From NCBI GenBank assembly GCA_028284045.1, contig JANQSN010000058.1, positions 1 to 64,000 of the forward strand: DNA of 64,000 nt. Direction: 5' to 3'. A program made the position numbers and the translations under genes. The notes under the pieces were generated by a model that was not told where the DNA came from, did not search any database, and was given only the letters and a program-made list of their open reading frames with translations. Source of the stretch: Alphaproteobacteria bacterium (GTDB lineage Bacteria > Pseudomonadota > Alphaproteobacteria > DSM-16000 > Inquilinaceae). Shown piece after piece: positions 9,123 to 26,198 of the stretch (positions are counted from its first letter, which is position 1; the number at the start of each line of letters is the position of its first letter).

Positions 9123-9134
9123 CTCAGCATCCTC
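9099..9134 (-). repeat. 18-bp tandem duplication of the mftB ribosome binding site and start
   Basis: On the - strand GAGGATGCTGARATGAAC occurs twice head to tail (9117-9134 and 9099-9116) with one mismatch. Each copy carries a Shine-Dalgarno GAGGA 7 bases before an ATG in the mftB frame, so the gene has two tandem starts that differ by six residues. Confidence 0.85.
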
Positions 9135-9928: not shown

Positions 9929-10022
9929 GGGCGCGCGTTCCTGGTGATGGCCGCAGTCCGCCGGGCGACCCCGGATCCCGCGCCTGGGCGGGCCGGGGTC
10001 GCCCGGCGCCACGGCGATGGCG

Positions 10023-10199
10023 TCAGTAGACCCCGCACATGGCGTCGATGCCGACCTCCTCGATGACCACGTCTTCCAGGGTCTTCGGCGGCTCGGCGGC
10101 CGGTTCCTTGGCCTTGGCCGTGGCCGGCGGAGCGGCGGGCGCGGGGGCGTCGGTATCGGTGTCGGGTGTCGCCTCGGCCGGCTGAAGGTCTTTGAGCAT
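10023..10199 (-). CDS. mftA: Mycofactocin precursor peptide MftA
   Basis: A 58-residue precursor peptide that ends VIEEVGIDAMCGVY. The terminal Val-Tyr is the part that becomes the cofactor after MftC-catalysed decarboxylation and cross-linking. The usual ending is IDGMCGVY, so the Gly before Met is Ala here. The leader is longer than in mycobacteria because of an Ala/Pro/Thr-rich stretch (residues 9-37). The ATG at 10199 is preceded by AAGGAG. The gene follows mftF by 73 bases, inverted from the usual order in which mftA comes first, so it may have its own promoter in that gap or rely on read-through. Confidence 0.93.
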   Translation of the reverse strand: MLKDLQPAEATPDTDTDAPAPAAPPATAKAKEPAAEPPKTLEDVVIEEVGIDAMCGVY

Positions 10200-10272
10200 C
10201 AGGGGGTCTCCTTTCTGATTGGGGGGAACGGGGACGCGACGCACACGATGTCCCGCTACCTGCCGGCGCCGG

Positions 10273-11787
10273 TTAGCGCCGCCAGCGAAGCCACGGGACC
10301 AGCGGCCGCCAGCAGCGCCGGGCCAGGCAGCCGCGCCAGACGCCGAACTGGTAGGCCGCCATCTCCAGCCAGAACAGGCTGGCATAGACGGGCAGGGAGA
10401 CGGCCGGTCGCAGCCGTCGATGATCGACCACCGGCCCGACCAGCAACAACACCGCAACCGCCGGTGCCAATGGCGGCCACAGCGCCGCCAGCGCCAGCGC
10501 CGGCAGCCCGAGATAGCGGGCGACGTCGCGCCCCAGGTGATAGAGCGCCGCCCCGTGTCCGCGCAGCACCGAGGCGACGAGGCGGCCGAACGGCAGGCCG
10601 ACGCCGACCCGCCGCAGCATGCGGTGCTTGCCGGCCAGTTCCGCCGTCACCAGGCCGAGCGCCAGCACCGCCAGCGCCGCCGCGGCGGGCCAGAAGACCG
10701 GCAGCGCTGTCAACCCGCCCAGCGCGACCAGCGCGGTGCGCGGCAGGTACTGGATGCGCCGGTTGGCCGGATGGCGCGCCTGCAGGTCGGCTTCCGAGGA
10801 GGCGTAGTCGGCGCGCCGGGCCAGCAGCGCCGTCAACCGCACGCGATGGTCATGAAAGACGATGCCAGCCGCCGTGTAGCGCACGCCGGCACCGTGCCTG
10901 AGCGCCCGCCAGACGAAATCGGCATCCTCGCCGACCCGCATCTCCGGCGCGAAGCCGCCCAGCGCCAGCAGCAGGTCGCGCCGCACCACGAGATTGCAGG
11001 CCGGCAGATAGGCGATCGCCTGGCTGGGGCCGACGGGACCGTCGAAGGCACCCATGTCGAGGGGCGAGCGCACCACCTCGAACGCCGCGACCGGCCCGTG
11101 GGCCGACAGGGCAGCGACCCGGCCGCCGACGATGGCGGTTGCCGGATCGTCGAGATGGGCGACCAGCGTGGCGAGCCAGCCGGGGGTCGCCACGCAGTCG
11201 TTGTCGATGAACGCCAAGACTTCCGCCTCGGCCTCCGCCGCCGCCAGGTTGCGTGCCGCGGCGGGACCGCGATTGCGGTCGAGCCGCATCAGCCCGACCG
11301 GCAGCCCGGCCAGCGCGGGCGCCAGCGGCGGGTCGGAGGCATCGTCCACCACGACGATTTCGCGCCGGTCCGCGGGATAGTCGAGCGCCAGCAACGACTG
11401 CACACAGGCCCGCGTTGCCGCCGGCCGGCCATGCGCCGCCACGATGATCAGCACCGAAGGCCAGAGGACCGGCACCGCCGGTTCGCGCGTCACCAGGCGT
11501 CGGTGCCACAGGTCGTCGAGGAACGCCGCCGCCTCGCCCGGCGCCGAAGACGAGTCGGTGAGGTCGGCCGCGCTCAACCCCTGGCGCGCCGCCGCCGTCG
11601 GCAGCCGGGCCAGCAGCGCGCCCGCCGCCGCGTTCAGGCGGATCGCCAATAACGGTCGCTTCGACAAGAGCACGCCGCCGTCGCGGCCCTCGACCACCGT
11701 CAGCCCCGCCGCCAGGCGGTAGCGGGCGTTGCCGCGCCGGTCTTGCGCCGGCAACGGGTGGTGCAGATCGGCGCCGAGGGCGGTCAT
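10273..11787 (-). CDS. mftF: Mycofactocin glycosyltransferase MftF
   Basis: A 504-residue family 2 glycosyltransferase. An N-terminal PqqD-like segment (about residues 15-95) precedes the GT-A domain (IIVAAHGRP, VVVDDASDPPL, DxD-like IDNDC, and catalytic VGEDADFVWRAL), followed by C-terminal hydrophobic helices (about 365-470). MftF adds beta-1,4-glucose units to premycofactocin to give the oligoglycosylated cofactor. The start ATG at 11787 overlaps the end of etfB by 4 bases, so translation is probably coupled. Confidence 0.9.
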   Translation of the reverse strand: MTALGADLHHPLPAQDRRGNARYRLAAGLTVVEGRDGGVLLSKRPLLAIRLNAAAGALLARLPTAAARQGLSAADLTDSSSAPGEAAAFLDDLWHRRLVTREPAVPVLWPSVLIIVAAHGRPAATRACVQSLLALDYPADRREIVVVDDASDPPLAPALAGLPVGLMRLDRNRGPAAARNLAAAEAEAEVLAFIDNDCVATPGWLATLVAHLDDPATAIVGGRVAALSAHGPVAAFEVVRSPLDMGAFDGPVGPSQAIAYLPACNLVVRRDLLLALGGFAPEMRVGEDADFVWRALRHGAGVRYTAAGIVFHDHRVRLTALLARRADYASSEADLQARHPANRRIQYLPRTALVALGGLTALPVFWPAAAALAVLALGLVTAELAGKHRMLRRVGVGLPFGRLVASVLRGHGAALYHLGRDVARYLGLPALALAALWPPLAPAVAVLLLVGPVVDHRRLRPAVSLPVYASLFWLEMAAYQFGVWRGCLARRCWRPLVPWLRWRR

Positions 11788-12653
11788 GCCGGCTCCTCCA
11801 GAAGACCATGCTCGCCGAGAAAGGCGAGGATGGCATCGGCCAATTCCTCCGGCGAGCCGTCGATGATGCGCCCAGCCTTCTGGGCGACGCCGGCCGACAG
11901 GATCTGCGCCACCCGCTCGTGCGGGGCTGACGCGCTGTCGGGGATGAAGATCTCGCGCGGCCGCGGATAGGGCGGCATGGCCGCCTCAGCCGTCGCCGAC
12001 GGGAAGGCAAGATCCATCGGCGCCAAGCCGAGGTCGGGCAGATGGCGCACGGGTATCTCAGCCCGCTTGGCCGCCATCAGACCGGGCAGCCCGGCATAGC
12101 GCAGCGGTGCCGACCCGGCCTCCACGGCCAGGACCGCCGGCAACGTGACCTCGCCTTCCGACCGGGCACCGCGCGCCAGCCGGCGCACGAAGCGGGCACG
12201 GCCGTCGGAGAGTTCGAACGACAGGACATCGGTGACCACCGGCCACCCGAGACGCTCGGCCAACAGCGCCGGCACCTTGCCCGAGCCGCCGGCCAGGCTG
12301 CGCGCGCCGCACAGGATGAGGTCCGGCAGCCCCTCCGTGCTGAGCGCGGCCGCCAGCAGCAGCGAGGTCGCGGCGGGTCGCGTCGCGGTTCGCTGATCCT
12401 CCCAGACGCGCAAGACGGCATCCGCGCCGACCGCCAGCGCGTCGCGCAGCACGGTTTCCGCCTCGTCCGGGCCGATGGTGACGGCGCGCACCGTGCCGTC
12501 GTCTGACCGCAGCCTGAGCGCCAGCTCCAGCGCCGCGGCATCGGCCGGGTTGAGGACGTAGAGCGTGCGCCCGGCATCGATCGCGCCGGTCAGCGGGTCG
12601 ACCTCGACGGTCTCCGGATCGGGCAGGCAGGACAGGCAGACGGCGATGCGCAT
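11784..12653 (-). CDS. etfB: Electron transfer flavoprotein beta subunit
   Basis: A 289-residue ETF beta (FixA-like) subunit starting MRIAVCLSCLPDPETVEVD, with the ETF nucleotide-binding region around DLILCGARSLAGGSGKVP and the VLAVEAGSAPLRY segment where the family signature lies. ETF accepts electrons from flavoprotein dehydrogenases and delivers them to ETF:quinone oxidoreductase. The ATG at 12653 is 16 bases after the fixX-like stop. Having the whole ETF/ETF:QO set inside the mycofactocin operon suggests it is dedicated to this pathway rather than to fatty-acid oxidation. Confidence 0.87.
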   Translation of the reverse strand: MRIAVCLSCLPDPETVEVDPLTGAIDAGRTLYVLNPADAAALELALRLRSDDGTVRAVTIGPDEAETVLRDALAVGADAVLRVWEDQRTATRPAATSLLLAAALSTEGLPDLILCGARSLAGGSGKVPALLAERLGWPVVTDVLSFELSDGRARFVRRLARGARSEGEVTLPAVLAVEAGSAPLRYAGLPGLMAAKRAEIPVRHLPDLGLAPMDLAFPSATAEAAMPPYPRPREIFIPDSASAPHERVAQILSAGVAQKAGRIIDGSPEELADAILAFLGEHGLLEEPA

Positions 12654-12669
12654 CGGGGGCTGCCTCACC

Positions 12670-12954
12670 TCAGGATTCGCGGAAGGTGACGCCGTACCCG
12701 CCCCGCGGATAGGTCCAGTGAATTGCGCCTTCCTCCGCACAGACGAAGTAACAGGCTCCACATTCAAAGCACTGTTCATAGTTGAACAGCACGCTGCCAT
12801 CGTCCAGCGGCACGAACAGATTTGCCGGACACACGGTGACGCAGGATTGCACCGCGCAGCTCCGGCATTTCTCGCCGTCAACGACGATATGTGGCCGATC
12901 ATCGACCTTGAATCGAGCGGTCCGTATCTTCTCGTCGTGGGTGGTTATCACCAT
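12670..12954 (-). CDS. fixX: FixX-like ferredoxin partner of ETF:quinone oxidoreductase
   Basis: A 94-residue iron-sulfur protein with two cysteine groups, CRSCAVQSCVTVC near residues 30-42 and CFECGACYFVC near residues 63-73, followed by the FixX-type tail IHWTYPRGGYGVTFRES. In eukaryotic ETF:QO this module is fused to the flavoprotein; in FixABCX-type bacteria it is separate, as here. The ATG at 12954 overlaps the preceding fixC-like gene by 7 bases. It should pass electrons with the FixC-like subunit to quinone. Confidence 0.9.
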   Translation of the reverse strand: MVITTHDEKIRTARFKVDDRPHIVVDGEKCRSCAVQSCVTVCPANLFVPLDDGSVLFNYEQCFECGACYFVCAEEGAIHWTYPRGGYGVTFRES

Positions 12955-14282
12955 AGATAGGCCCTCGTGACTTGATATAGATCCCTCAATACATGGCTCG
13001 GTTTGCCACCGACCTTGCGAAGGCTGCGCCAATAGAGCGGCAGGAGCTTCTGCTTGCGGTTGCCGTCGACGCGGAACAGCGCCTCCGACGCTAGAGCGGC
13101 GAGTTCCGGATAGAGGTTTTGCAGCCGCTCGCCGTTGACGAAGGACGGCGCGTGCCGATAGGCCTGGAAGTCGGTCAGCACGTTGCGCCGGCGCAAGGCG
13201 TCGAGGTAGAGGCGCAGGACGGAGCGGCTGAAGTCGCGGCGCCGGCAGGCGTCGATGGCGACCTCCGCCGCCGCCAGCCCCGATTGCATGGCGTAGTTGA
13301 TGCCCTCGATATAGATCCCGGTGGACAGGCAGAAGCCGGCGGCATCGCCGGCCACCATCATCCCGTCGGTGTAGAGGTCGGGGATCATCTTCCACCCTGC
13401 CTCCGGGATCAGATGGGCGGAGTACTCCCGCAAGGTGCCGCCGCGCACCAGCGGCGCCACCGCCGGATGGGCCTTGAACGTCTCCAGGAGGTCGTAGGGG
13501 CGCTTCTTGTGCTCGACCAGGGAGGAGAGCTGGGCGATGACGCCCAGCGACAGCGAGGTCTTGTTGGTGTAGAGGAAGGCGCCGCCGTGCACCTCTTCGG
13601 TCACCGCGCCGAGATACTCCAGCGCCATGCCTTCCTCGCCGTTGAGGTGGAAGCGCTGGCGGATCACCGCTTCGTCGAGACCGATCACCTCCTTCACGCC
13701 CAGCGCCAGCTCGTGGGTCTCCAGTTCGCGTTGCAGCCCGGCCTTGCGGGCGAGCCACGAGTTCACGCCGTCGCAGGCGATGACCACGTCGCCGCGCACC
13801 TCGCCCTCGTCGCGGCGCACCTTGACGCCGACGACGCGGCTGCCTTCCCACAGCAGGTCGTCCACCACCGTGGAGGTCAGCAGGAAGGCGCCGGCCGCCT
13901 CGGCTTGCGCGGCGAACCAGCGGTCGAATTTCGGGCGCAGGATGGTGAAGGCGTTGTAGGGCGGCGCGACATAGCCGGGTGCTGCGGACCGGAAGTCGAG
14001 CGAGACGGCCGTGGTCGGCGACATCAAGACGAGGTCGCGGCGGCAGACATGGCGCTCCACCGGGGCCTGTTCCCACCAATTGGGGATCAGGGCATCGACG
14101 ATCGCACTGCCGTAGAAGACCGCGCCGGAAACGTTCTTGGCGCCGGGGTATTCGCCACGCTCGATCAGCAGAACCTTCAGCCCGGCCCGCGCGCACAGCA
14201 GCGCCGCCGCACTGCCGGCGGGGCCGGCGCCGACGATGATGACGTCGAAGCGTTCGCTTCTGCCGTTGGCGTTGGCGCTCAT
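12948..14282 (-). CDS. fixC: ETF:quinone oxidoreductase, FixC-like flavoprotein
   Basis: A 444-residue FAD protein with the dinucleotide motif VIIVGAGPAGSAAALLCARAG at the N-terminus, VIACDGVNSWLARKAG in the middle and the second FAD-contact motif MMVAGDAAGFCLS near residue 315. These fit the FixC/ETF:quinone oxidoreductase family. It acts at the inner membrane face and reduces quinone with electrons from ETF. The ATG at 14282 overlaps the etfA stop as ATGA. The protein could instead be a dedicated FixC of a bifurcating complex, but no nitrogen-fixation genes are near. Confidence 0.88.
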   Translation of the reverse strand: MSANANGRSERFDVIIVGAGPAGSAAALLCARAGLKVLLIERGEYPGAKNVSGAVFYGSAIVDALIPNWWEQAPVERHVCRRDLVLMSPTTAVSLDFRSAAPGYVAPPYNAFTILRPKFDRWFAAQAEAAGAFLLTSTVVDDLLWEGSRVVGVKVRRDEGEVRGDVVIACDGVNSWLARKAGLQRELETHELALGVKEVIGLDEAVIRQRFHLNGEEGMALEYLGAVTEEVHGGAFLYTNKTSLSLGVIAQLSSLVEHKKRPYDLLETFKAHPAVAPLVRGGTLREYSAHLIPEAGWKMIPDLYTDGMMVAGDAAGFCLSTGIYIEGINYAMQSGLAAAEVAIDACRRRDFSRSVLRLYLDALRRRNVLTDFQAYRHAPSFVNGERLQNLYPELAALASEALFRVDGNRKQKLLPLYWRSLRKVGGKPSHVLRDLYQVTRAYLW

Positions 14283-15319
14283 TGGTGCACCATCTGGCGG
14301 GCGGCCTCGGGTTTGGCCGGCGCAGCACCACCGGCGGCGCGCGCCGCCAGCTTGCTGAGCAGGATCGGCACGATCTCGTGCAGATCGCCGACGACGCCGA
14401 GATCGGCCATCTTCAACAGCGGCGCCGTGCGGTCGGTGTTGACGGCGACGATCACCTCGCTGCCCCCGATCCCGGCGACGTGCTGACCCGCGCCGGACAC
14501 GCCGAAGGCCAGGTAGAGCTTCGGCGCCACCACCTTGCCGGTGGTGCCGATGAAGCGGTCGTCGGCCAGCCAGCCGCGATCCGCCGCCACCCGTGTACCG
14601 CCCAGCGTCGCGCCCAGCGCCGCTGCCAGCGTCTGCAACTGCGCCATGCCGTCCGGCCCGCCGACGCCGAGGCCGCCGGAGACGATGCGCTCCGCATCGG
14701 TCAGGTCGACGGTCTCGGGGTCCGGCGGCAGCGTGCTGAGCGTGCGGTCGCGCAAGCGGGCCGGGTCGAGGGCGGGGACGATCCGCTCGACTTCGACCCG
14801 CCGACCGGCGCGGCCTGGTCCGACGCCGCGCACCCCCGGCGTCAGCAGGAAGCCGACCAGCAGGTCGCGCGCCCAGATCAGCCGCTCGTGGCGCCGGTTG
14901 CCGTGGGTCACGCGATACGCCTCCGCACAGCCGTCCGCCATGACCGCAACCCGCGTGCAGCCGGTCACCAGCGGCAGTCGCCACCGGACGGACAGCCGCG
15001 GCAGCCAGGCGCGGGCATCGCCGCTGTCCGGCGCGATGATCGTCGCCGGCCGGGCGTCCCGCAGCACAGGCTCCAGCGCCGCAAGCCAGCCATCGGCACT
15101 GAACCCGTCGAGAGCGGCATGTTCGACCAGCGTCACCCGGTCGGCGCCGTATGGCGCGAGGTCCTCGGCCAGCCCGGCCACCGCAGCGCCCGGCAGGACG
15201 ACGTGCACGTGGCAGCCGCGCTGGTCGGCGATGTCGCGCGCCTCCGCCACGCATTCCAGCGTCGCCGGCGTCAATGCGTCGTGGTCGGTCTCCGCCACCA
15301 CCAGGACCGGGCCGTCCAT
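14279..15319 (-). CDS. etfA: Electron transfer flavoprotein alpha subunit
   Basis: A 346-residue ETF alpha (FixB-like) subunit. The C-terminal FAD-binding domain shows ERIVSGGLGVGG, LGGTRVAADRGWLADD, the FIGTTGKVVAPKLYLAFGVSG segment and IVAVNTDRTAPLLKMADLG, all standard for the family. The start MDGPVLVVAE at 15319 shares one base with the stop of the upstream OYE gene (TGATG), so the genes are translationally coupled. It forms the ETF heterodimer with the beta subunit encoded two genes downstream; the two are split by fixC and fixX. Confidence 0.9.
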   Translation of the reverse strand: MDGPVLVVAETDHDALTPATLECVAEARDIADQRGCHVHVVLPGAAVAGLAEDLAPYGADRVTLVEHAALDGFSADGWLAALEPVLRDARPATIIAPDSGDARAWLPRLSVRWRLPLVTGCTRVAVMADGCAEAYRVTHGNRRHERLIWARDLLVGFLLTPGVRGVGPGRAGRRVEVERIVPALDPARLRDRTLSTLPPDPETVDLTDAERIVSGGLGVGGPDGMAQLQTLAAALGATLGGTRVAADRGWLADDRFIGTTGKVVAPKLYLAFGVSGAGQHVAGIGGSEVIVAVNTDRTAPLLKMADLGVVGDLHEIVPILLSKLAARAAGGAAPAKPEAARQMVHQ

Positions 15320-17277
15320 CAGATCGCCCTCCCGGCACGCTCGCCTTCGACGATGGCGGCATGCGCGCGGCGCGGCGCCACGCAATCGCCGATCCGCTGC
15401 ACCGTCGGGACCTGGCCCTTCAGCGCGAAGTAGAGAGCGTCGTCGGCCTTGCGGTGGATCGCCAGCACCACGGTGTCGACCTTCGGGAAGGTGACGATCT
15501 GGCCGGAATAGTTGTGCAGGGCCGTGACCTCGCCGCCGGCGATGCTGAGCACGGAGTGATTGGGCGTGCAGGTGATGCCAAGGCGCCGCGCCTGGCGGTA
15601 CCAGTTCTCCAGATCCAGCGTGACGCCGAGGTCCTGGCCGACATAGAGGGTCGGCGTCACCACCTCGACCCGGCAGCCCTGCTCGGCCAGGTACTCCGCG
15701 GTGCTGGTGGCCTCGTGGAAGCCGAGGCGGTCGATCACCAGGACCCGTTCGCCGGGGACGACGGCGCCGGAGAGGATGTCGGTGACGTCGGCGACCTCCG
15801 GTCCCTCGCTGCCGGGAATGGCGGTGCGGTCGGGGGCGGAGCCGGTGGCGACGACGATGGCGTCGGGACGTTCCGCCAACACGGTCTGGGCCGTCGCCGC
15901 CGCACCGGTGCGCAGGTCGACGCCGAGCTGGTCGATCTCGTGCAGCAGATTGCGCACGATGTCGCCGAACTCCGCCCGATTGGTCACCCGCGCGGCCCAG
16001 ACGACCTGGCCGCCCAGCCGCGCCTGCTTCTCCATCAGCGTGACGCGGTGGCCGCGCCGCGCGGCGACCGCGGCCGCCTTCAGCCCGGCCGGCCCGCCGC
16101 CGATGACGACCACGCGCTTCGGCTTCTCGGCGCGCGTCAGCGTGCCGGCGCCGAGGGTCTTCTCCTGGCCGGTCGCCGGCGTCTCGATACAGCCGAGCCA
16201 GCGGTTCAGCCCCATCCGGCCGACGCATTCTTGATTGCAGGAGAGACACAAGCGGATGTCGTCGGCCCGGTTCTCCCGCGCCTTGCGGGCGAATTCCGGA
16301 TCGGCGATCTGCGCGCGCACCACGCCGATCAGGTCGGCATGCCCTTCGGCCAGCACGCGTTCCGCCTGGATCGGGTCCTTGACCCGGCCGACGCCGATCA
16401 CCGGCAGGCGCACCGCCTTGCGGATCGCCGAGGCAATGAACATCGCGTAGTTCGGCGGAATCCGCATCGACGCTTCGATCATGTAGAGGGTCGAGGTGGC
16501 GCTGCCGATGGAGGTGTTGATGCAGTCGATCAGCCCGTCGCCTTCCAGGATGCGGGCGAGCGCGACGGTTTCGTCGATGGTGATGCCGTCGCGGATCAGC
16601 TCGTCGCCGCACAGCCGCACGCTCAGCACATAGTCGCGCCCGACCGCCAGACGGATGGCAGCGATGATCTCGCGCAGCAGCCGCGCCCGGTTGTCCAGGC
16701 TGCCGCCATAGGCGTCGTCGCGGCGGTTGGTGCTGCGCGACAGGAACTGCCGGACGATCGAGGAGTGCGAGCACTGCAGCTCGACGCCATCGAAGCCGCC
16801 CTGTTTGGTGTAGCCGGCGACCCTCGCATAGCCCTCGACGATCTCGCGGATGTCCGCCGCCTCGACCGCCTTCGGCACCTCGCGGAACAGCGGATCGGCG
16901 ACGGCCGACGGCGCCCAGGCGGGCAGACGCGTGAACATGCCGCTGCCCTGCCCGCCATTGTGGTTGATCTGGGCGAGGATCGGCACGCCGTGGTCGTGCA
17001 CCATCTCGGTGATCCGCCGATAGCCGGGGATCACCGCCGGATTGAAGGCGTGGATCAGCTTCTCGTACGGGTGGTCCGTCGGATGGGTGGAGTGTTCTTC
17101 GGTGATGATCAGGCCGACGCCGCCGGCTGCCCGCTCGCGGTAGTAATAGCCGTGCCGGTCGGTCGGCATGAAATCTTCGGCGTAGTTGGTCAGATGGGCG
17201 GAGAACACGATGCGGTTGGGCACCGTGATGCTGCCGACCTTGAGCGGCGTGAAGAGAAGCCGGGGCGCGCTGGTCAT
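15319..17277 (-). CDS. Mycofactocin-system FadH/OYE family oxidoreductase (first copy)
   Basis: A 652-residue flavoprotein built like 2,4-dienoyl-CoA reductase: an N-terminal FMN TIM barrel (about residues 5-330, with QINHNGGQGSG and DGVELQCSHSSI), a 4Fe-4S site with C-x2-C-x3-C-x11-C (CLSCNQEC... near residue 352), and FAD/NAD(P) domains with VVIGGGPAGLKAA. This class recurs in mycofactocin clusters. Its substrate is unknown; it could move electrons between NAD(P)H or mycofactocinol and ETF. It is two bases from the second copy and overlaps etfA by one base. Confidence 0.87.
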   Translation of the reverse strand: MTSAPRLLFTPLKVGSITVPNRIVFSAHLTNYAEDFMPTDRHGYYYRERAAGGVGLIITEEHSTHPTDHPYEKLIHAFNPAVIPGYRRITEMVHDHGVPILAQINHNGGQGSGMFTRLPAWAPSAVADPLFREVPKAVEAADIREIVEGYARVAGYTKQGGFDGVELQCSHSSIVRQFLSRSTNRRDDAYGGSLDNRARLLREIIAAIRLAVGRDYVLSVRLCGDELIRDGITIDETVALARILEGDGLIDCINTSIGSATSTLYMIEASMRIPPNYAMFIASAIRKAVRLPVIGVGRVKDPIQAERVLAEGHADLIGVVRAQIADPEFARKARENRADDIRLCLSCNQECVGRMGLNRWLGCIETPATGQEKTLGAGTLTRAEKPKRVVVIGGGPAGLKAAAVAARRGHRVTLMEKQARLGGQVVWAARVTNRAEFGDIVRNLLHEIDQLGVDLRTGAAATAQTVLAERPDAIVVATGSAPDRTAIPGSEGPEVADVTDILSGAVVPGERVLVIDRLGFHEATSTAEYLAEQGCRVEVVTPTLYVGQDLGVTLDLENWYRQARRLGITCTPNHSVLSIAGGEVTALHNYSGQIVTFPKVDTVVLAIHRKADDALYFALKGQVPTVQRIGDCVAPRRAHAAIVEGERAGRAI

Positions 17278-17279
17278 CT

Positions 17280-19256
17280 CTAGACCTCCCGGCCCGCCCG
17301 GTAGCCTTCCAGGATCGCCTGGCCGACCGAGCGCGGCGCGACACAGTCGCCGGCCCGGAAGACGCGCCGGCCCGCCGCCTTCAGCGTGGCATAGAGGTCC
17401 TCCTCCGGCACCTCGTGATCCACGTGTACGACCAGGTCGACATTGTCGATCGCGATCGGACCGCGGTCGAACGGATCGACGCCCGCCACCATGCGGTCGG
17501 CGACCCGTTCCACCTCGATCTGCGGGCGCAGCGCGATCCCCTTGGCGGCGGCGCGCTGGTTCCAGGGGGTCAGTTCCAGGGTGGCGGCAAGGCGCTGGCC
17601 GACGAACATGTCGGCGCTGACCACCGTCACCTGCCAGCCGCGATCGGCGAGCCACTCCGCCACCCCCATCGCCACGTGATCGCCGATGGCGTCGAGCACG
17701 ACGGCGCTGCCCGCCGGCGCGTCCACCTCGCCGCGCAGCACCTGGCGCGCCGTCTTCAACACGATGCCGTCGCCCAAGGCCGACCCGACGGCGCCGCCCG
17801 CGCGGCCGCCGGCGGCGACGATCACGGCGTCCGGGGCCTCGCTGGCGATCAGGTCCGCGGTGACGTCGATCCCGGTGCGGATCGGCACCTGGCGGCCGCG
17901 AACCTCGGCCTCCAGCCAGTCGATCATGCGGCCCAGCCGCTCGCGCCCCGGCGCCGCGGCCGCCACGCGTACCGCACCGCCGGGGCCGTCTTCGCGCTCG
18001 AACACGGTCACGCTATGCCCGCGATCGGCCGCCACGCGTGCCGCCTCCAGCCCGGCGGGACCGGCGCCCACGACGATCACCCGATGGCCGGCCGGGGCGC
18101 GGGTCAGCGGCGCGAACTCCGGCACGCCCTCATAGCCGGCGGCCGGGTTGTTGGCGCAGCTCAAACGCGGGTTCTGGACCTGGGCGACCTGGCAGAACTG
18201 GTTGCACAGCGTGCACGGACGCACGGCGTCGGCCATGCCGGCGCGCAGCTTCGCCGGCAGATCGGGATCGGCGATCAGGGCGCGCGTCATCTCCACCGCG
18301 TCGGCCTGGTCCTCCGCCAGAAGGGCCGCCGCCATGGCTGGGTCGACGATGCTGCCCTGGGCGATCACGGGCACGCGCACGGCGCTCTTGATCAGGGCGG
18401 CCAACGGTGCGGCGAAGCCCGGCGGCGCGAAGAGGCCGGGCCGCGTCTGATGGGTCGTATAGATACTGCCGCTGGTGACGCTGACGAAGTCGATCGCCCC
18501 GTCGCCGGTCAGCCGGCGCGCGATCTCCGCGGCATCGTCCGGCTTGATGCCGGCCCAAGGCGCATGTTCGTCGCCGACCAGGCGAAGGCCGACCACCGCC
18601 TGTCGCCCGACGGCGTCGCGGACGGCGCGGATGACGCCGAGGGCGAAGCGCAGTCGATTGGCGAGATCGCCGCCATAGTCGTCGCCGCGCTGATTGGTCA
18701 ACGGCGACAGAAACTGGCGGATCAGACTGGATTGACCGGCATTGATCTCCACGCCGTCCAGGCCGCCCGCCATCGCCTGGCGCGCCGAGCCGGCGAACCC
18801 ATCGATCACCGTGCGGATCTCGGTGCGCTCCATCGCCTGCGGCATCTCCCGGCTGGCGACGTCCGGCACCGGAGACGGCGCCCACAGCGGAAGCTGGGAG
18901 TAGTGGCTAGAGCCCTGCATGCCGCTATGCGTCAGATGGGCCAGCACCAGGGCACCGTGGCGGTGCACGGCATCGCCGACCATCCGATAGCCGTCGACCA
19001 CCGCATCGTCGTCGCCGCGGATGACATACTCATAGGGCCAGTCGGAGGGATGAACGACGCTGCCTTCCAGCACGATCAGCCCGACGCCCCCGGCGGCCCG
19101 GGCGGCGTAGTAGTCGGCGTGCCGCTTCTCGAAGCGGTGATGCGTCGCGAAGTTGGTCTGATGGGCAGCGAAGACCAGGCGGTTGGGCGCGGTTCGCCCG
19201 CCCAGTGCGAGCGGTTCGAACAGGGCTTGGAATGCGTCCGGCGGGGGCCCGGCCAT
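17280..19256 (-). CDS. Mycofactocin-system FadH/OYE family oxidoreductase (second copy)
   Basis: A 658-residue paralogue of the downstream enzyme with the same order: FMN barrel (HLTHSGMQGSS, LDGVEINAGQSSLIRQFLSP), 4Fe-4S cysteines C-x2-C-x3-C-x11-C (CTLCNQFC..., near residue 346), and FAD motif IVVGAGPAGLEAA. The two copies are clearly distinct in sequence, so they probably form a pair or act on different substrates. The start MAGPPPDAF at 19256 is 18 bases downstream of mftC. The exact reaction is not known. Confidence 0.87.
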   Translation of the reverse strand: MAGPPPDAFQALFEPLALGGRTAPNRLVFAAHQTNFATHHRFEKRHADYYAARAAGGVGLIVLEGSVVHPSDWPYEYVIRGDDDAVVDGYRMVGDAVHRHGALVLAHLTHSGMQGSSHYSQLPLWAPSPVPDVASREMPQAMERTEIRTVIDGFAGSARQAMAGGLDGVEINAGQSSLIRQFLSPLTNQRGDDYGGDLANRLRFALGVIRAVRDAVGRQAVVGLRLVGDEHAPWAGIKPDDAAEIARRLTGDGAIDFVSVTSGSIYTTHQTRPGLFAPPGFAAPLAALIKSAVRVPVIAQGSIVDPAMAAALLAEDQADAVEMTRALIADPDLPAKLRAGMADAVRPCTLCNQFCQVAQVQNPRLSCANNPAAGYEGVPEFAPLTRAPAGHRVIVVGAGPAGLEAARVAADRGHSVTVFEREDGPGGAVRVAAAAPGRERLGRMIDWLEAEVRGRQVPIRTGIDVTADLIASEAPDAVIVAAGGRAGGAVGSALGDGIVLKTARQVLRGEVDAPAGSAVVLDAIGDHVAMGVAEWLADRGWQVTVVSADMFVGQRLAATLELTPWNQRAAAKGIALRPQIEVERVADRMVAGVDPFDRGPIAIDNVDLVVHVDHEVPEEDLYATLKAAGRRVFRAGDCVAPRSVGQAILEGYRAGREV

Positions 19257-19274: not shown

Positions 19275-20306
19275 TCAGGCGTGGACTGCCGGCCGATCGG
19301 CCGTCTCGAAGACGCACTCCGGATCGGGGGCATCGAGCGACCGTCCGGTGAAGTGCTTCACGGCGATGCAGCCGCCGTGGCACTTGCTGTAGGCGCCGCA
19401 ACTCTGGCAGCCGCCCCCCACCTGCCAGTCGCGCAGATGGTTGAACAGCGCGGCCTGACGCCAGATCCCGGCGAAGCCCTCCGGCTGGCGGACGTTGCCG
19501 GCGGCGAACTCCGGCGCCAGCAGGAAGGGGCAGGCATAGACGTCGCCGACCGGATCGACGCAGCAGACGATGCGGCCGGCGCCGCACATATTGAGCCCGT
19601 CGACCGCCTCGCCATAGGCGGACAGGTGGAAGAAGCTATCCCCGGTCAGCACGTCGCGGTGCGCCAGCAGCCAGTCATAGAGCCGGCGGTTCTGCGCGTG
19701 GGTGGGGCGCAGATCGTGCCAGACGTCGCCGCCGCGGCCGGTCGGCCGCAGCCGGGTCAGCCTAAGCTCGGCGCCGTGACCGCGGGCCAGGGCGTAGAGG
19801 TCGTCGATCTCCGCCACATTGTGGCGGGTGACGGTGCTGTTGATCTTGAAGGCGAAGCCGCGCGCCGCCAGGTGATCCATGGCGCGGCGCGCCCGGGCGA
19901 AGGACCCCTCGCCGCGCACCGGGTCGTTGGTTTCGGCCCGCGCGCCGTCCAGGCTGATCTGCACGTCCAGATAGTCGCGCGAGGCGATCCAATCGGCCGC
20001 CGCCCGGTCGATCAGGGTGCCGTTGGTGGAAAACTTGACGCCGATGCCGCGGTCCAGCGTGTAGTCCATCAGTTCGAAGAAATCGCGCCGGCTCATCGGC
20101 TCGCCGCCGCCGACATTGATGTAGAAGACCTTCATGCCCGCCCATTCGTCGATCAGCCGCTTGGCCTCCGCGGTGGTCAACTCGTCGGGCCGGCGCCGGC
20201 CGGAGGACGACAGGCAATGGACGCAGCGCAGATTGCAGCCATAGGTGATCTCCCAGGTCAGGCAGATCGGCGCGTCGAGGCCCTGGCGGAAGATCTCGTA
20301 GCTCAT
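19275..20306 (-). CDS. mftC: Mycofactocin radical SAM maturase MftC
   Basis: A 343-residue radical SAM/SPASM enzyme that oxidatively decarboxylates the C-terminal Tyr of MftA and cross-links it to Val. The radical SAM cluster motif C-x3-C-x2-C is seen in YGCNLRCVHC near residue 25, followed by the SAM-binding GGGEPMSR. The C-terminal SPASM domain has cysteines in CGAGRIVCCVDPVGDVYAC and CQSCGAYSKCHGGC. The start ATG at 20306 has AGAGG upstream. It follows mftM by 29 bases and is followed by the OYE pair. Confidence 0.93.
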   Translation of the reverse strand: MSYEIFRQGLDAPICLTWEITYGCNLRCVHCLSSSGRRRPDELTTAEAKRLIDEWAGMKVFYINVGGGEPMSRRDFFELMDYTLDRGIGVKFSTNGTLIDRAAADWIASRDYLDVQISLDGARAETNDPVRGEGSFARARRAMDHLAARGFAFKINSTVTRHNVAEIDDLYALARGHGAELRLTRLRPTGRGGDVWHDLRPTHAQNRRLYDWLLAHRDVLTGDSFFHLSAYGEAVDGLNMCGAGRIVCCVDPVGDVYACPFLLAPEFAAGNVRQPEGFAGIWRQAALFNHLRDWQVGGGCQSCGAYSKCHGGCIAVKHFTGRSLDAPDPECVFETADRPAVHA

Positions 20307-20335: not shown

Positions 20336-21319
20336 TCAGGCACCCGGCCGATCGACCACCAGCCAGGCGCCGTGGTCGTCGAAGCACTGCCAGCGACCGC
20401 CTAGCCGATCGCCCAGCGCAGCGAGCCGGGCGCGGTCGAACACCTGGCGATGGCCGAAGCGCGGATCGGGCGTCTCCTCGACCGGCACCGCGATGACCAG
20501 CCGGCGGGCGGTCAGCGACCACAGGGCCGCCATCGCCGGGGCGGTCTCAGCGGGTTCCAGATGCTCCAGAAGATGGATGGCCGTGACCACGTCGAAGGGC
20601 GGCGACAGGGGTGCCAGTTGGCGCGCCAGATGCTGCGCGACCGTGGCGGCGCCGATATCGGCGGCGACGAAGCGGATGTCCGATCGCCCGCGCACGCCGG
20701 CATAGTCTTCGGCCAGCGCGACCAAGGCGGCGTTGCAGTCGCAGCCGATCAGCGCCGGACCGCCGGCATGCCACGTCCGCGCCAGCCCGAGCGGAAAGAA
20801 GCCGAAGCAGGTGGCGACGTCGAGCAGGGTCGCCGGCGCGACCGCTGCGGCGAGGCCGGCAGCCTGGCGATAGATCGCGGCGAAGTCGGCGACGAAATCG
20901 CCGGCGTCCTGCCCGTTCGCCCCATCCGGGCGCTGCGCCGCCTCGTGCAGGCGGTCCAGCGTATTGTCGTAGAAGAGATGCCAGGCGTGCCGCTCGTCGC
21001 CATGCATCGAGCGGACGATCTCGCCGACGAAGCGCTCGAACAGGGCTTGCGGATTTGACCGCCCACCGGCGCCGTGCAGGCTCAGCAACGGAAGCAGCTC
21101 GTCGGCGACGTAGCGGCCGATATTGTTGTCGATCTCGCTCGGGTCGAAATCATGCACCAGGATGACGTCGAACGGGTCGAAGGATCGCGGATCGGCGGCG
21201 CGGCCGGCATCGATGTCGTAGACCGTGAAGCGCCGGCTCCGGGCCCGCGGCGGGGCGCGGTCGGCAAGGCAGTCGGCCAGCATGCCGTGGCGCTGGCGCG
21301 AGAGCGTGATCGGCGTCAT
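20336..21319 (-). CDS. mftM: Mycofactocin oligosaccharide methyltransferase MftM-like
   Basis: A 327-residue SAM-dependent methyltransferase with a Rossmann-type region at about residues 155-290 (ATLLDVATCFGFFPLGLA as motif I, VTAIHLLEHLEP as motif post-III). The N-terminal segment beginning FDVILVHDFDPSEIDNNIGR and ending SNPQALFERFVGEIV resembles MftM, which 2-O-methylates the mycofactocin glucose chain in mycobacteria. It lies directly before mftC and 4 bases after the VWA gene, which supports the assignment. Confidence 0.8.
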   Translation of the reverse strand: MTPITLSRQRHGMLADCLADRAPPRARSRRFTVYDIDAGRAADPRSFDPFDVILVHDFDPSEIDNNIGRYVADELLPLLSLHGAGGRSNPQALFERFVGEIVRSMHGDERHAWHLFYDNTLDRLHEAAQRPDGANGQDAGDFVADFAAIYRQAAGLAAAVAPATLLDVATCFGFFPLGLARTWHAGGPALIGCDCNAALVALAEDYAGVRGRSDIRFVAADIGAATVAQHLARQLAPLSPPFDVVTAIHLLEHLEPAETAPAMAALWSLTARRLVIAVPVEETPDPRFGHRQVFDRARLAALGDRLGGRWQCFDDHGAWLVVDRPGA

Positions 21320-21323
21320 CGCC

Positions 21324-22889
21324 TCACCCGGCCGCCGCCATGCGCTGCGGCGCGCCGGCACCGCGCGCCTGGGCGCGCAACAGGGTTTCGGTGACCCGGC
21401 CAAGCTGCTTCAGGTTCCGCACCACCTCGGTGCGGTGGCACACCGGCTCATAGAGCGCCATGTCGCAACTGCCCAGCGCCCAGCTACCGCGCGGTTCGGG
21501 CGACAGCCAGACGAGCTGGCGGGCGCGCCGGCGGATCTCCTCCAGCGCCCGCACATTGGGCGGGTTGCGGTTGCCGCGGCCGTCGCCGAGCACGATCACC
21601 GTGGTCTGGTTGGTGACCGCCGACAGGTAGCGCTGGCCGAACACGTCGAGCGCCCGGCCGTAATTGCTGTTGGCATCGCAGTCGATCAGCTCGCCGCCGA
21701 ACACCGCGGCGATGGCGTCGTCGATGCCGCGCTGCTCGAAATACTGGGTGGCCTCCGCCAGCTCGCTGACGAAGACGAAGCTGCGCACCTGCTCGAACAG
21801 CGATTGCAGGCTGTAGACCAAGTGCAGCATGAAGCGCGCCGTGGTGCGCACCGACAGGCTGACATCGCAGATGACGACGATGCGCGGCTTCTCGTCCCGC
21901 TGGCAGGTCAGCACCGGGCGGAACGGAATGCCGTCATAGGCCATGCTGTTGCGCATGGTGCGCGTGACGCTGATGCGGCCGCGATGGCTGACCACCCGGC
22001 GCGGCGATCGCGCGCCCTTCATGCGCCGGCCGAGGCGGCGCACGATCTCCGCCATCTCGCGCCGCTCGCTCTCCGAGAAGTGGAAATCGTAGGCCGAGCG
22101 GATGGGCTGGCCGTTCCCTTCCGGCGGCTCGCTGCCGCGCTGCAAGGCGATCTCGCGTTCCAGGTAGCCCTTCAAGAGCGCCGGCAGATTGGCGATGATG
22201 CCGTCGATGCTGCTGGCCAGGTGCTCCAGCAGCGCCTCGTCGATCTCCAGGTCGCGCAGATCGTCGAGCAGCGTCTCCGCCGCGTTGACCATCAGGTCCT
22301 CGTCGATGTGCTGCAGCGCGTCGCCGAAATTCAGCTCGCCGGGTTGGGCGATGTTCTTCACCCGGCGGACATGGAGCTGGTGGGTCACCTTCTTCATGAC
22401 CTCGTCCAAGAGGCCCTTGTTGCGGTTCAAGATCAGCCCCTGGCTCATCGCCGACAGGCTGAGTTGGTTGGGGTCCTGATGCGGGTTGAACCGCGTTACC
22501 ATCCGGTCGGGATCGAAGAAGTCGCGGATCGATACCGGTTCGCCATGGGCATGCTCGCCATCATCGTTGACGACGCCGGTCTCCTCCGACGCGAAGACGA
22601 TCCGCTCCGGCTCGGCCAAATCGCCGTCGTGGTGATGGTCGTGGCCATGCCCGTGCGCCCGCCGGTCGGCGGGGCCGGGCAGGGTGAAGAACAGCGCGAA
22701 CAACTCTTCGAAGACGGGGATGTCGTGCAGGTCCTTGACCAGCGCCGCGCGCAGCACGGTGCGCACCGTCTCGCGGTCGGCCAGGGTGACGCAGGTCAGT
22801 GCCTGCATCGCGTCGATCGACTCCGAGGGCGAGATGCGCACGCCGTTGCGCTTCAGCAGGCAGATGAAGCGATTGATCGGCGCGTCCAT
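21324..22889 (-). CDS. CoxE-like VWA protein with a short His-rich segment
   Basis: A 521-residue cytosolic protein of the CoxE/VWA class. The VWA MIDAS motif is intact (VICDVSLSVR near residue 345) and the C-terminal half matches VWA partners of MoxR ATPases. Residues about 78-90 (AHGHGHDHHHDGD) and a later EHAHGE are His-rich. MoxR-VWA pairs such as CbbQ-CbbO, NorQ-NorD and CoxD-CoxE remodel or metallate a target enzyme. Its start shares one base with the moxR stop. The likely target is the alcohol dehydrogenase encoded just upstream; that is inference. Confidence 0.85.
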   Translation of the reverse strand: MDAPINRFICLLKRNGVRISPSESIDAMQALTCVTLADRETVRTVLRAALVKDLHDIPVFEELFALFFTLPGPADRRAHGHGHDHHHDGDLAEPERIVFASEETGVVNDDGEHAHGEPVSIRDFFDPDRMVTRFNPHQDPNQLSLSAMSQGLILNRNKGLLDEVMKKVTHQLHVRRVKNIAQPGELNFGDALQHIDEDLMVNAAETLLDDLRDLEIDEALLEHLASSIDGIIANLPALLKGYLEREIALQRGSEPPEGNGQPIRSAYDFHFSESERREMAEIVRRLGRRMKGARSPRRVVSHRGRISVTRTMRNSMAYDGIPFRPVLTCQRDEKPRIVVICDVSLSVRTTARFMLHLVYSLQSLFEQVRSFVFVSELAEATQYFEQRGIDDAIAAVFGGELIDCDANSNYGRALDVFGQRYLSAVTNQTTVIVLGDGRGNRNPPNVRALEEIRRRARQLVWLSPEPRGSWALGSCDMALYEPVCHRTEVVRNLKQLGRVTETLLRAQARGAGAPQRMAAAG

Positions 22890-24124
22890 CAGGCGTCTCC
22901 GACCCCACCGCCGACGCGCCCCCTGTAGCCACCGAAATAGCGGGCGCCGTGTTCGCGCTGGCGGGCCTCGGCCTCGCCGCGGTCGGGCTCCGCCGGGCGC
23001 AGCGGCGGACGCAACGGTCCGGCGGGCGGCCCATCGCCCGGGCCGGGATCGGCGTGGCCGTGCCCCGGCCCGTGATCGTGGTCGTGATCGTGGGGATGAT
23101 CGTGATCGTGGTGATGGTGGTGGTCGTGCGGTCCGTGATGGTGGTGGCCGTGCCCGTGCCCGTGGTGATGGTGATGCTGCGCCCGGGCGGCCGCACCCGG
23201 CACGCCTTCCAGCACCCAGGCGATCTGGTCGCGGACCTGCTGGGTGTCGCGCTCGTACTTGACCAGCAGCTCCAGGGTCTCCTCGACCAGGTCATGGGTC
23301 AGGGTCTCGGCGTTCAGCAGCACCAGGGCCTGGGCCCAATCCAGGGTCTCGCTGATGCTCGGCGCCTTGCGCAGGTCGAGCGCCCGCAATCGGCGGATGA
23401 CGTCCACCACCTGGGCGGCCAGCGTCTCGCCGGCGCCGGGCACCTTGCGGCGCAGGATCTCCAGCTCGCGCCCCTCGTCGGGATAGTCGATGAACAGGTG
23501 CAGGCAGCGGCGCTTCAGCGCGTCGCTCAGGTCGCGGGTGTTGTTGGAGGTGATGATCACCGTCGGCGGCGTCTTGGCGGTGACCGTGCCGATCTCCGGC
23601 ACCGTCACCTGGAAGTCGCTGAGCACTTCCAGCAGGAACGCCTCGAACTGCTCTTCGGCGCGGTCGATCTCGTCGATCAGCAGCACCACCGGATCCGGCG
23701 CACTGATCGCCTGCAGGATCGGCCGCCGCACGATGAAGTGCTCGGAGAAGAAGACGTCGTCGTGCCGGCGCAGCGTTTCCACCGCGTCGCGCAGGTCGTC
23801 GACGTCGGCGAACACCTGGCTGATCTTGTCGCGCAAGATCTGGGTGTAAAGGAGCTGTTTGCCGTATTCCCACTCATAGAGCGCTCGCGTCTCGTCGAGC
23901 CCGCCATAGCACTGCAGGCGGATGAGCGGCTGGTCGAGCGCCGCGGCGACGACCTTGGACAATTCGGTCTTGCCGACGCCGGCCGGTCCTTCGATGAGGA
24001 TCGGCTTGCGCATCTGCTGGGCGAGGAAGACGACCGTCGCCACCTTGCGGTCGCAGATGTACTGCTGCGCCGCGAGTTGGTCGATCGTCCGGTCGATGCT
24101 GTCGAACATGGGCCGGCCCACCAT
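22889..24124 (-). CDS. MoxR-family AAA+ ATPase with His-rich C-terminal tail
   Basis: A 411-residue MoxR ATPase: Walker A GPAGVGKTE near residue 48, Walker B VVLLIDEIDRAEE, sensor 1 TSNNTRD. After the AAA+ domain comes a tail (about residues 316-358) with roughly 25 His in 42 residues, interspersed with Gly, Asp and Pro, as in nickel or zinc storage proteins such as HypB and UreE. The gene may start at the ATG at 24124 or at 24109 (MFDSIDRT); neither has a clear Shine-Dalgarno, and a strong hairpin sits directly upstream. With the VWA partner downstream and the metal-dependent dehydrogenase upstream it looks like a metal-loading chaperone. Confidence 0.87.
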   Translation of the reverse strand: MVGRPMFDSIDRTIDQLAAQQYICDRKVATVVFLAQQMRKPILIEGPAGVGKTELSKVVAAALDQPLIRLQCYGGLDETRALYEWEYGKQLLYTQILRDKISQVFADVDDLRDAVETLRRHDDVFFSEHFIVRRPILQAISAPDPVVLLIDEIDRAEEQFEAFLLEVLSDFQVTVPEIGTVTAKTPPTVIITSNNTRDLSDALKRRCLHLFIDYPDEGRELEILRRKVPGAGETLAAQVVDVIRRLRALDLRKAPSISETLDWAQALVLLNAETLTHDLVEETLELLVKYERDTQQVRDQIAWVLEGVPGAAARAQHHHHHGHGHGHHHHGPHDHHHHHDHDHPHDHDHDHGPGHGHADPGPGDGPPAGPLRPPLRPAEPDRGEAEARQREHGARYFGGYRGRVGGGVGDA

Positions 24125-24126
24125 GC

Positions 24127-24156
24127 GGGGCCGCCTCCCGCCGGGAGAGCGGCCCC
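24127..24156 (-). terminator. Strong hairpin between alcohol dehydrogenase and moxR
   Basis: GGGGCCGCCTCCC (24127-24139) pairs with GGGAG (24143-24147) and GCGGCCCC (24149-24156), with a GCC loop and one bulged base. It ends two bases before the moxR ATG. No T-run follows, so it may stabilise the dehydrogenase mRNA 3' end or occlude moxR initiation rather than terminate fully. Confidence 0.5.
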
Positions 24157-24191
24157 GACCTTTCGAGAGTAGCGAAACGGTGCCGGCGGCG

Positions 24192-25457
24192 TCAGTAGTA
24201 AGAGCCCGTCAGCGCATGCGCGACGACCGGTGCCACGGCATCGTAGGTCACCTCGCGCGCGTTGCCCGGCGTCGAGCCGTCGCCCAGCAGGTGCTTGGTG
24301 ATGCGGTCGACGTCGCGGTCGTCGCCAACGATCTTGTTGCCGCCCCACTCGGCATACTTGCCGACCCCCATGCGCGACTTGGTGTAGTCGGGCGTCGAGC
24401 AGAAGTTGGCCGGGACGCCGACATCCCTGCTGAGGCGGATGGCCGCTTCCAAGGCGCGCTCCGCCGCCGACACGTCGGTCAGGCCGTCGACATTCTCGCC
24501 GAGCGCCCGGGCGATGTCGCGGAACCGCTTGTAGTTTGTGGGCATGTTGTATTCCCACACCCGCGTCAGCGCGATCGCGTTGTTCAGCCCGTGATGGGTG
24601 TCGTAGTACGCGCTGATCGCGTGCGACATCGCGTGAATGATGCCGAGGCCGCCGCTGTTGAAGGACTGTGCGGCCATGTACGAGGCGAACATCATGTTGT
24701 AGCGCGCCTCGTAGTTCAGCGGCTCGAACACCGTGCGGCGCAGGTCCTGGCCGACCAGTTCGATCACCTTCAGCGCGTTGCCGAGGCTGGGCAGGAAGTC
24801 GAGGCGCGAGACATAGGGCTCCGAGGCGTGCGCCAGCACGTCGAAGCCACAGAAGGCCGTCAGGTCCTGCGGCATCGAGAAGAACAGCACCGGGTCGTTG
24901 ATGCCCAGCGTGACCGGGCAGTTATCGTCGAAGCCGAGCCATTTGTAGGGCGCCTTGTCCGACGTGGTGTCGGTGATGACGTAGGCCCAACTCGTCTCCG
25001 AGCCGGTGCCGGCGGTGGTGTTGATGGCGATATGCGGCGGGTTGTCGGGGTTCTCCGACTTGTTGAAGCCGTCGAACTCGTTGACGTTGCGGCCGTCGTG
25101 GGCAACCACGATGCGCGCGCCCTTGGTGGCGTCGGTGACGCTGCCGCCGCCCACCGAGATGAAGCTGTCGCACTTCTCCTTCACATAGAGATCGGCGAGC
25201 TCCATGCAGTTGTAGTCCTTGGGGTTCGACTCGATCTTGTCGTAGAGCACGACGTCGATGCCCTGGTACTTCACCTTCCCTTGGATGTCCTCGACGATGT
25301 CGGTGCCGCGCAGTCCCGACGTGGCCAGCAGCGACCGCTTGAAGCCCAGCTTCTTGGCCTCGACGCCGACCATCTCATAGGCACCGGGGCCGAGCAGGCC
25401 GCGGGGCATCCGGTGAAATTCCTTGATCGGGAATTGCCACAGCTTCTCTGCTTGCAT
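24192..25457 (-). CDS. Nicotinoprotein-type methanol/alcohol dehydrogenase, iron-ADH family
   Basis: A 421-residue group III (iron-containing family) alcohol dehydrogenase. It has the GGGSVTDATKG nucleotide loop near residue 105 and metal-ligand histidines in GIIHAMSHAISAYYDTHHGLNNA. Its length and sequence track the NDMA-dependent methanol dehydrogenases and ThcE-type alcohol dehydrogenases of actinobacteria rather than the ~385-residue AdhB class. Those enzymes hold NAD(P) tightly and depend on mycofactocin as external acceptor. The leader CTGGAGGAATCGCG before the ATG at 25457 is the same as that of the aldehyde dehydrogenase. Substrate range (methanol, ethanol, other) cannot be read from sequence. 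Confidence 0.88.
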   Translation of the reverse strand: MQAEKLWQFPIKEFHRMPRGLLGPGAYEMVGVEAKKLGFKRSLLATSGLRGTDIVEDIQGKVKYQGIDVVLYDKIESNPKDYNCMELADLYVKEKCDSFISVGGGSVTDATKGARIVVAHDGRNVNEFDGFNKSENPDNPPHIAINTTAGTGSETSWAYVITDTTSDKAPYKWLGFDDNCPVTLGINDPVLFFSMPQDLTAFCGFDVLAHASEPYVSRLDFLPSLGNALKVIELVGQDLRRTVFEPLNYEARYNMMFASYMAAQSFNSGGLGIIHAMSHAISAYYDTHHGLNNAIALTRVWEYNMPTNYKRFRDIARALGENVDGLTDVSAAERALEAAIRLSRDVGVPANFCSTPDYTKSRMGVGKYAEWGGNKIVGDDRDVDRITKHLLGDGSTPGNAREVTYDAVAPVVAHALTGSYY

Positions 25458-25522
25458 GACGCGATTCCTCCAGGTTTTTCTTTATGGATTCTTTTTGATT
25501 GATCGGCGGCAAGGGTGGCCGC

Positions 25523-25555
25523 TGTCGGTGGCCCCGCTCTGCGGAACCACCGACA
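25523..25555 (-). terminator. Hairpin between hupE and alcohol dehydrogenase genes
   Basis: Perfect 9-base arms TGTCGGTGG (25523-25531) and CCACCGACA (25547-25555) enclose a second short stem CCGC/GCGG. It sits in the 153-base gap between hupE and the dehydrogenase gene. Without a T-run it could be an attenuator or an mRNA processing/stability hairpin separating expression of the two genes. Confidence 0.5.
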
Positions 25556-25610
25556 CGAGCCCGGCGGCAGACCCGACAGTCGGGCCGCTCGGAACCTCGT
25601 CGGTCCGGGC

Positions 25611-26198
25611 CTAGACGCCGACCATCATCAACACGCCGGCCGCAGCGATGGCTCCGCCGGCCCAGCGCACCGCCAGCCCGTCGCTGAGACGACCGGCCAG
25701 GTGCCCGATCGCCAGGCCGAGCCCATGCAGCGCCGCGGTCGCCAAGGCAAAGCCGGCGACGTACAGCAACGCGCCGGCACCGGCCGGCATCTCCGCGCCG
25801 TGGGCATGACCGTGGAACAGGGCGAAGCCGCCGACGACCAGAAGCCCGATCGCCGTCGATACCTGCATCCGGGCGGCCACCAGACCGCCCAGCACGACGA
25901 CCGACGCCAGGATCATCAGCTCCACCGCCGGCAGCCCGACCGCTGCCATGGCGAGACCGCCGCCCAGCACGAGCACCGCGACGAAGGCCAACGGCACCAG
26001 CCAGCGGGCCCGTCCCCCCAGCAGCGCCGCCCAAAGCCCGACGGCAAGCATCGCCAAGAGATGATCGGCGCCGAGAAACGGGTGTGCGAGCCCGGCCAGG
26101 AACCCGCCGGTCGGCCCGGCCCCGACGTGGGCCTGGGCGGCCCCGGCGGCGAGAAGGAGCGGTGCGGCGACGGCGATCGCGCGGATGGGGCACTTCAT
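25611..26198 (-). CDS. HupE/UreJ family nickel/metal transporter
   Basis: A 195-residue membrane protein with a cleavable-looking N-terminal signal (MKCPIRAIAVAAPLLLAAGA, then AQAHV), about six hydrophobic helices, and the family motif HPFLGADHLLAML near residue 38. A second His-rich site FHGHAHGAEM follows. HupE and UreJ proteins take up Ni2+ (or Co2+). The ATG at 26198 is preceded by GGGAGGT. It is the first gene of the - strand run and sits next to the metal-dependent dehydrogenase and the His-rich MoxR, which suggests supply of the catalytic metal; which metal is not shown. Confidence 0.85.
   Translation of the reverse strand: MKCPIRAIAVAAPLLLAAGAAQAHVGAGPTGGFLAGLAHPFLGADHLLAMLAVGLWAALLGGRARWLVPLAFVAVLVLGGGLAMAAVGLPAVELMILASVVVLGGLVAARMQVSTAIGLLVVGGFALFHGHAHGAEMPAGAGALLYVAGFALATAALHGLGLAIGHLAGRLSDGLAVRWAGGAIAAAGVLMMVGV

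Follow-up and report, generated by a model that had tools for sequence, protein, structure and literature searches.

A histidine-rich MoxR/VWA pair linked by gene order to an NDMA-type alcohol dehydrogenase: a candidate maturation machine in a mycofactocin operon

Among the closest described systems are MadA, the mycofactocin-dependent alcohol dehydrogenase (ADH) of Rhodococcus jostii RHA1 (PMC13210347), and NorQD, which inserts non-haem iron into the nitric oxide reductase cNOR in a process driven by twisting (PMC13036017). How metal is delivered by MoxR/VWA pairs is an open question; the NorQD work supplies a motor and no metal donor. Here we describe a 64,000-nucleotide stretch of alphaproteobacterial DNA (contig JANQSN010000058.1, hereafter the window), which encodes, on its minus strand from 26198 down to 21324, a HupE permease, an NDMA-type iron-family ADH, a MoxR-type AAA+ ATPase and a CoxE-type VWA protein, in that order. 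On balance, we consider it moderately probable that MoxR and its VWA partner constitute an AAA+/VWA machine dedicated to maturation of the ADH through metal entry, equipped with a histidine-rich metal buffer and, as a local add-on, with HupE. The features of this segment are:

25611..26198, minus strand, HupE/UreJ-type permease of the Ni/Co importer family, 195 amino acids (PF04955)
24192..25457, minus strand, NDMA-type, mycofactocin-associated iron-family ADH, 421 amino acids (TIGR04266)
22889..24124, minus strand, MoxR-type AAA+ ATPase (MadB-like), with a core at about residues 6-300, then a His-rich tail and a conserved C-terminal motif
23046..23180 (approximate), minus strand, His-rich tail segment of MoxR, AQHHHHHGHGHGHHHHGPHDHHHHHDHDHPHDHDHDHGPGHGHA, 25 His in 44 residues
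22895..22965 (approximate), minus strand, conserved C-terminal motif of MoxR, EHGARYFGGYRGRV, preceded by a predicted helix
21324..22889, minus strand, CoxE-type VWA protein (MadC-like), 521 amino acids (PF05762, 120 bits; alignment, model and fold search)
22540..22660 (approximate), minus strand, His cluster HGHGHDHHHD and HAHG motif in the N-terminal third of the VWA protein (alignment)

Linkage of the pair to the ADH is exclusive. A scan of the genome collection with the MoxR core yielded 67 loci, and wherever that core is at least 74% identical the ADH gene lies directly upstream, except at L091, where the contig begins inside the MoxR gene; these loci belong to alphaproteobacteria, Competibacteraceae and Chloroflexales. 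To counter the bias introduced by a MoxR query, we also searched from the ADH side, across the order to which the window belongs and samples of Pseudomonadota, Actinomycetota, Chloroflexota and the class of Competibacteraceae. At 28 of 30 ADH loci a MoxR gene lies no more than 459 bases away on the same strand, and the remaining two reach a contig edge within 351 bases. Thus, MoxR is directly downstream of the ADH in 28/28 informative loci, which span Alphaproteobacteria, Competibacteraceae, Chloroflexota and Actinomycetota, and the conserved gene order is ADH-MoxR-VWA, in many cases with MftM and MftC next. The ADH was also found in six plasmid records, in five of them as a full-length mdo gene with MoxR and VWA genes behind it. 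In a tree of 117 distinct MoxR cores, 54 of the 56 ADH-linked sequences and one contig-edge case form a single 55-row clade (SH-aLRT 99); the ADH-linked sequences outside it are from one haloarchaeal locus and one actinobacterial locus on a long branch. The operon at L030, in a record titled Anaerolineae bacterium, is very similar to that of the alphaproteobacterial locus L029, and this record is probably misnamed or a mixed bin.

The window pair has the hallmarks of a MoxR-type ATPase and its VWA partner, namely Walker A (GPAGVGKT), Walker B (LLIDEIDR) and sensor 1 (SNN) motifs in the former and, in the adjoining protein, a MIDAS motif (DxSxS; D342-S344-S346...D436) that is invariant in the alignment. 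Pairs of this kind are already covered by the NCBIfam families MadB and MadC. The nearest family of the ATPase is MadB_ATPase (NF047784), with 362.8 bits against a cut-off of 475, and the VWA protein scores 240.3 bits against the MadC (NF047783) cut-off of 600; because both scores fall short, we refer to the window proteins as MadB-like and MadC-like. The structure model of the ATPase has a core mostly above 90 in predicted local distance difference test (pLDDT), a disordered His tail below 50 and a helix after the tail. The VWA protein is modelled, with moderate quality, as a helical N-domain, a disordered linker at about residues 71-194 that holds the His cluster and the HAHG motif, and the VWA domain, with a putative finger. 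A sequence search of this protein against PDB gave no useful match. A fold search with its model placed NorD of the NorQD complex first (9qhe_G, E = 2.7e-6) and the MIDAS domain of Midasin second.

A reading made from the sequence alone had noted about 25 His in 42 residues of the MoxR tail and a second His cluster in the VWA partner. Both hold: the maximum density of the tail is exactly 25 His in 42 residues, for which the chance is about 1e-27 (one window, 3% His), and the cluster is the HGHGHDHHHD and HAHG segment listed above. The tail recurs in four relatives with the same composition and a different exact sequence, and its His codons are mixed (20 CAC and 5 CAT, with GAT/GAC and GGN interspersed); slippage in a simple repeat, considered as its origin, was rejected on these two grounds. 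Among relatives more broadly the His segment is variable in both length and sequence, or lacking altogether, whereas the aromatic motif at the C-terminus stays in many. This motif (YFG/YFT/AFR-like; RYFGGYRGR and variants) was detected with a loose pattern in 35 of 54 complete ADH-linked MoxRs versus none of 60 others, and is possibly a docking motif.

With a His tail defined as at least 6 His in 20 tail residues, such tails are present in 19 of 55 ADH-linked MoxRs versus 1 of 60 others (Fisher p = 1.8e-6, uncorrected for kinship), the sole exception being the haloarchaeal L088, whose record contains gaps. His tails are strongly enriched next to the ADH and nearly confined to ADH-linked pairs, many of which are nevertheless tail-less. 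On the MoxR tree the His-tail label requires at least seven changes, five of them forced by well-supported branches, so that the tail was gained or lost several times. His density of the MoxR tail co-varies with that of the VWA N-terminal region (Spearman 0.82, n = 47).

The ADH passes the TIGR04266 model for NDMA-dependent methanol dehydrogenase with 645.9 bits over the whole protein (cut-off 625), and this family assignment predicts methanol dehydrogenase activity with a non-exchangeable nicotinamide cofactor. Its metal site (D206, H210, H275 and H289, the Asp/His/His/His set of the iron-ADH fold) is invariant in 86/86 homologues. In Gram-positive methylotrophs, enzymes of the NDMA type are zinc- and magnesium-containing; the identity of the metal in the window enzyme is not readable from its sequence. 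Because the VWA model matches NorD and this metal site is invariant, our preferred mechanism is that the ADH is opened at the expense of ATP to let metal in. If the machine works as NorQD does, a MoxR hexamer would grip the finger of the VWA protein and, using ATP, would twist it; the VWA protein, holding the ADH, would open it so that the catalytic divalent metal could enter. In this lineage, the flexible His-rich segments of the MoxR tail and the VWA linker may buffer metal where it is inserted, and HupE may raise the supply of a Ni/Co-type metal. The earlier proposal that the pair helps to metallate the ADH is plausible and has gained support from the gene linkage, the single clade, the similarity in fold to NorQD, the invariant metal site and the enrichment and co-variation of the His segments.

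Further downstream of the VWA gene, without large gaps, come genes for an MftM-like protein, MftC, two old yellow enzyme (OYE) reductases, electron transfer flavoprotein (ETF) alpha and an ETF-quinone oxidoreductase, and then, in the same operon, for a ferredoxin-like protein, ETF beta, MftF, the MftA precursor, a short-chain dehydrogenase/reductase (SDR) and MftB:

20336..21322, minus strand, MftM-like methyltransferase (NF041255, 160 bits, under the cut-off of 200)
19275..20306, minus strand, MftC, mycofactocin radical SAM maturase (TIGR03962, 607 bits)
15319..19256, minus strand, two FadH/OYE-family mycofactocin-system oxidoreductases (17280-19256 and 15319-~17280; TIGR03997)
11784..15322, minus strand, ETF alpha, FixC-like ETF-quinone oxidoreductase, ferredoxin-like protein and ETF beta of the mycofactocin system (NF038209, TIGR04503 and FixC-family matches)
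8823..11787, minus strand, MftF (10273-11787), MftA precursor, mycofactocin-coupled SDR and MftB (TIGR03965, TIGR03971, TIGR03967; MftA by pattern)

The stretch from HupE to MftB reads as a single mycofactocin alcohol-oxidation operon; a promoter scan revealed no recognisable sigma-70 promoter. Its own ETF alpha and beta, ETF-quinone oxidoreductase and ferredoxin suggest that electrons would pass to quinone via ETF. The MftA precursor, located by a pattern search, ends in ...EEVGIDAMCGVY, with the stop at about 10023. One of the tandem OYE reductases is above the TIGR03997 cut-off of 793 (974 bits) and the other is just under it (768). An ExaC-type acetaldehyde dehydrogenase is encoded past the far end of the operon, on the plus strand (6826-8331), and its proximity suggests ethanol as a substrate of the ADH. 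Just upstream of the operon, also on the plus strand (26732-27457), is a gene for a tectonin-domain protein that seems to carry a signal peptide.

Several points weigh against the pair being a machine for metal entry. Its contact with the ADH is something that we infer, and related iron-family ADHs, such as FucO, are to our knowledge generally produced without such helpers. Confidence in the VWA model is moderate (predicted template modelling score 0.49). Tail-less pairs occur in Competibacteraceae, Defluviicoccus, several Chloroflexi and some Actinomycetota, so the His tail is not essential, and correction of the co-variation for kinship leaves about five independent contrasts, 3.5 for and 0.5 against, an underpowered and non-significant result. 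Finally, the CbbQO system, as stated in PMC12657314, remodels Rubisco with no metal insertion. Such reactivation of Rubisco is the precedent for the main rival, according to which the pair is an activase that remodels or assembles the ADH oligomer, for example by seating or renewing the tightly bound nicotinamide cofactor, and the His tails are a side feature. Tail-less pairs are in line with this proposal, and linkage to the ADH and independence of mycofactocin fit it equally well, but it leaves unexplained the repeated occurrence of His-rich segments in the ADH-linked clade, jointly in the two partners, and their near absence from other related MoxRs; we regard it as a serious alternative that is rather unlikely. 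Somewhat more doubtful is a stronger form of the metal hypothesis, in which the His segments constitute one relay on the AAA+/VWA machine: the MoxR tail would catch the metal and pass it to the VWA linker, from which it would be pushed into the ADH by the turning of the machine. The two partners of such a metallochaperone with its own store would have acquired and lost it jointly, and it would possibly deliver Ni or Co where HupE is present. A role in the service of mycofactocin, either handing the cofactor over to the ADH or helping in its biosynthesis, is suggested by the operon with its whole mycofactocin set and by the adjoining MftM and MftC genes in several phyla. However, MftC was found in 20 of 32 tested pair-bearing genomes, most of them drafts, and is absent from 10 Rubrobacter-type genomes, including G638, whose 4.4 Mb contig looks near complete, and from two haloarchaeal ones. 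In the Rubrobacter-type genomes without MftC, same-clade MoxR and VWA genes are still downstream of an ADH of the same family. Since the pair persists without the maturase and the ADH adjoins it everywhere but at the haloarchaeal L088, where none is in reach (the ADH at L083 is 42% identical), the partner of the pair is the ADH, not mycofactocin, and a mycofactocin role is the least probable of the explanations weighed here. The Rubrobacter-type ADH-MoxR-VWA loci without a mycofactocin maturase include L056, L060, L063, L066 and L082 and those of genomes G638, G711, G750 and G509; their ADH would have either another electron acceptor or an unrecognised mycofactocin maturation. Both haloarchaeal loci (L083:1025-7832, with an iron-family ADH, and L088:7254-10590) encode a His-tailed MoxR and a His-bearing VWA protein and adjoin an oppositely oriented gene for a polytopic membrane protein with a His-rich loop. 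By eye the latter resembles a Ni/Co transporter; its NicO/ZIP-like Pfam matches are sub-threshold only, and we did not use it as evidence.

HupE heads the operon, as the sequence-only reading had it: its gene lies 153 bases ahead of that of the ADH, and the protein passes PF04955 (HupE_UreJ) with 188 bits (cut-off 23). A substrate of Ni or Co is predicted from the family, the sequence not telling which metal. All four ADH-bearing genomes of the window's family, which represent three genera, have HupE immediately before the ADH, and a HupE counterpart is absent genome-wide from 20 of 31 pair-bearing genomes, including two His-tailed alphaproteobacteria; HupE is thus a lineage-specific addition and not a general uptake arm. 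A HupE gene about 7.5 kb upstream of the pair in Competibacteraceae (L036) does not adjoin the ADH and was not counted. A Ni/Co or cobalamin riboswitch before HupE was considered and rejected, as an Rfam scan of the window gave only a tRNA. His-rich tails together with HupE are typical of Ni/Co handling, and a genome search found no second HupE in the window genome, which would suit cell-wide storage or detoxification of Ni/Co/Zn by the tails, with HupE as the importer and a merely positional link to the ADH. This is highly improbable, as the His tails track ADH-linked MoxRs across phyla and HupE is missing from so many pair-bearing genomes, His-tailed ones among them. A much stronger case, which falls a little short of an even chance, can be made for HupE being a neighbour outside the module that serves another need, such as cobalt for B12: beyond the window's family it is not conserved with the pair, but its constant position before the ADH within that family speaks for membership. 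With uptake arm and His store both optional and the steps of metal transfer proposed, the original description of the locus as a complete uptake, storage and insertion route overstates the case.

If the pair is indeed a maturation machine, mycofactocin-type oxidation of alcohols (ethanol, methanol, ethylene glycol) gains a likely maturation step, which is relevant to expressing these enzymes elsewhere. Pairs with and without matching His segments on closely related ADHs provide a natural comparison that bears on whether the donor is built into the motor.

Compared with known systems, the window pair shares the MoxR/VWA architecture of the Rubisco activase CbbQ-CbbO. Like CoxD-CoxE of CO dehydrogenase maturation, it combines a related MoxR with a CoxE-type VWA protein next to a metalloenzyme, and the window genome has a second MoxR of that kind (G000:C24); however, the two are on separate branches of the MoxR tree, and none of eight plasmid CO-dehydrogenase-type pairs has a His tail. 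With NorQ-NorD it has in common an AAA+ MoxR and a MIDAS-bearing VWA protein whose model matches NorD best, but its target would be a soluble iron-family ADH instead of a membrane haem-copper oxidase, and His-rich segments are not mentioned in the available NorQD text (PMC13036017). The pair also resembles MadA-MadB-MadC and the actinobacterial mdo-MoxR-VWA operons, which have the same ADH-MoxR-VWA order and the same MoxR clade, and several of the latter likewise have His-rich MoxR tails. By contrast, the window proteins score under both equivalog cut-offs, the His tail is much longer and the module is part of one operon with the whole mycofactocin set, ETF and HupE.

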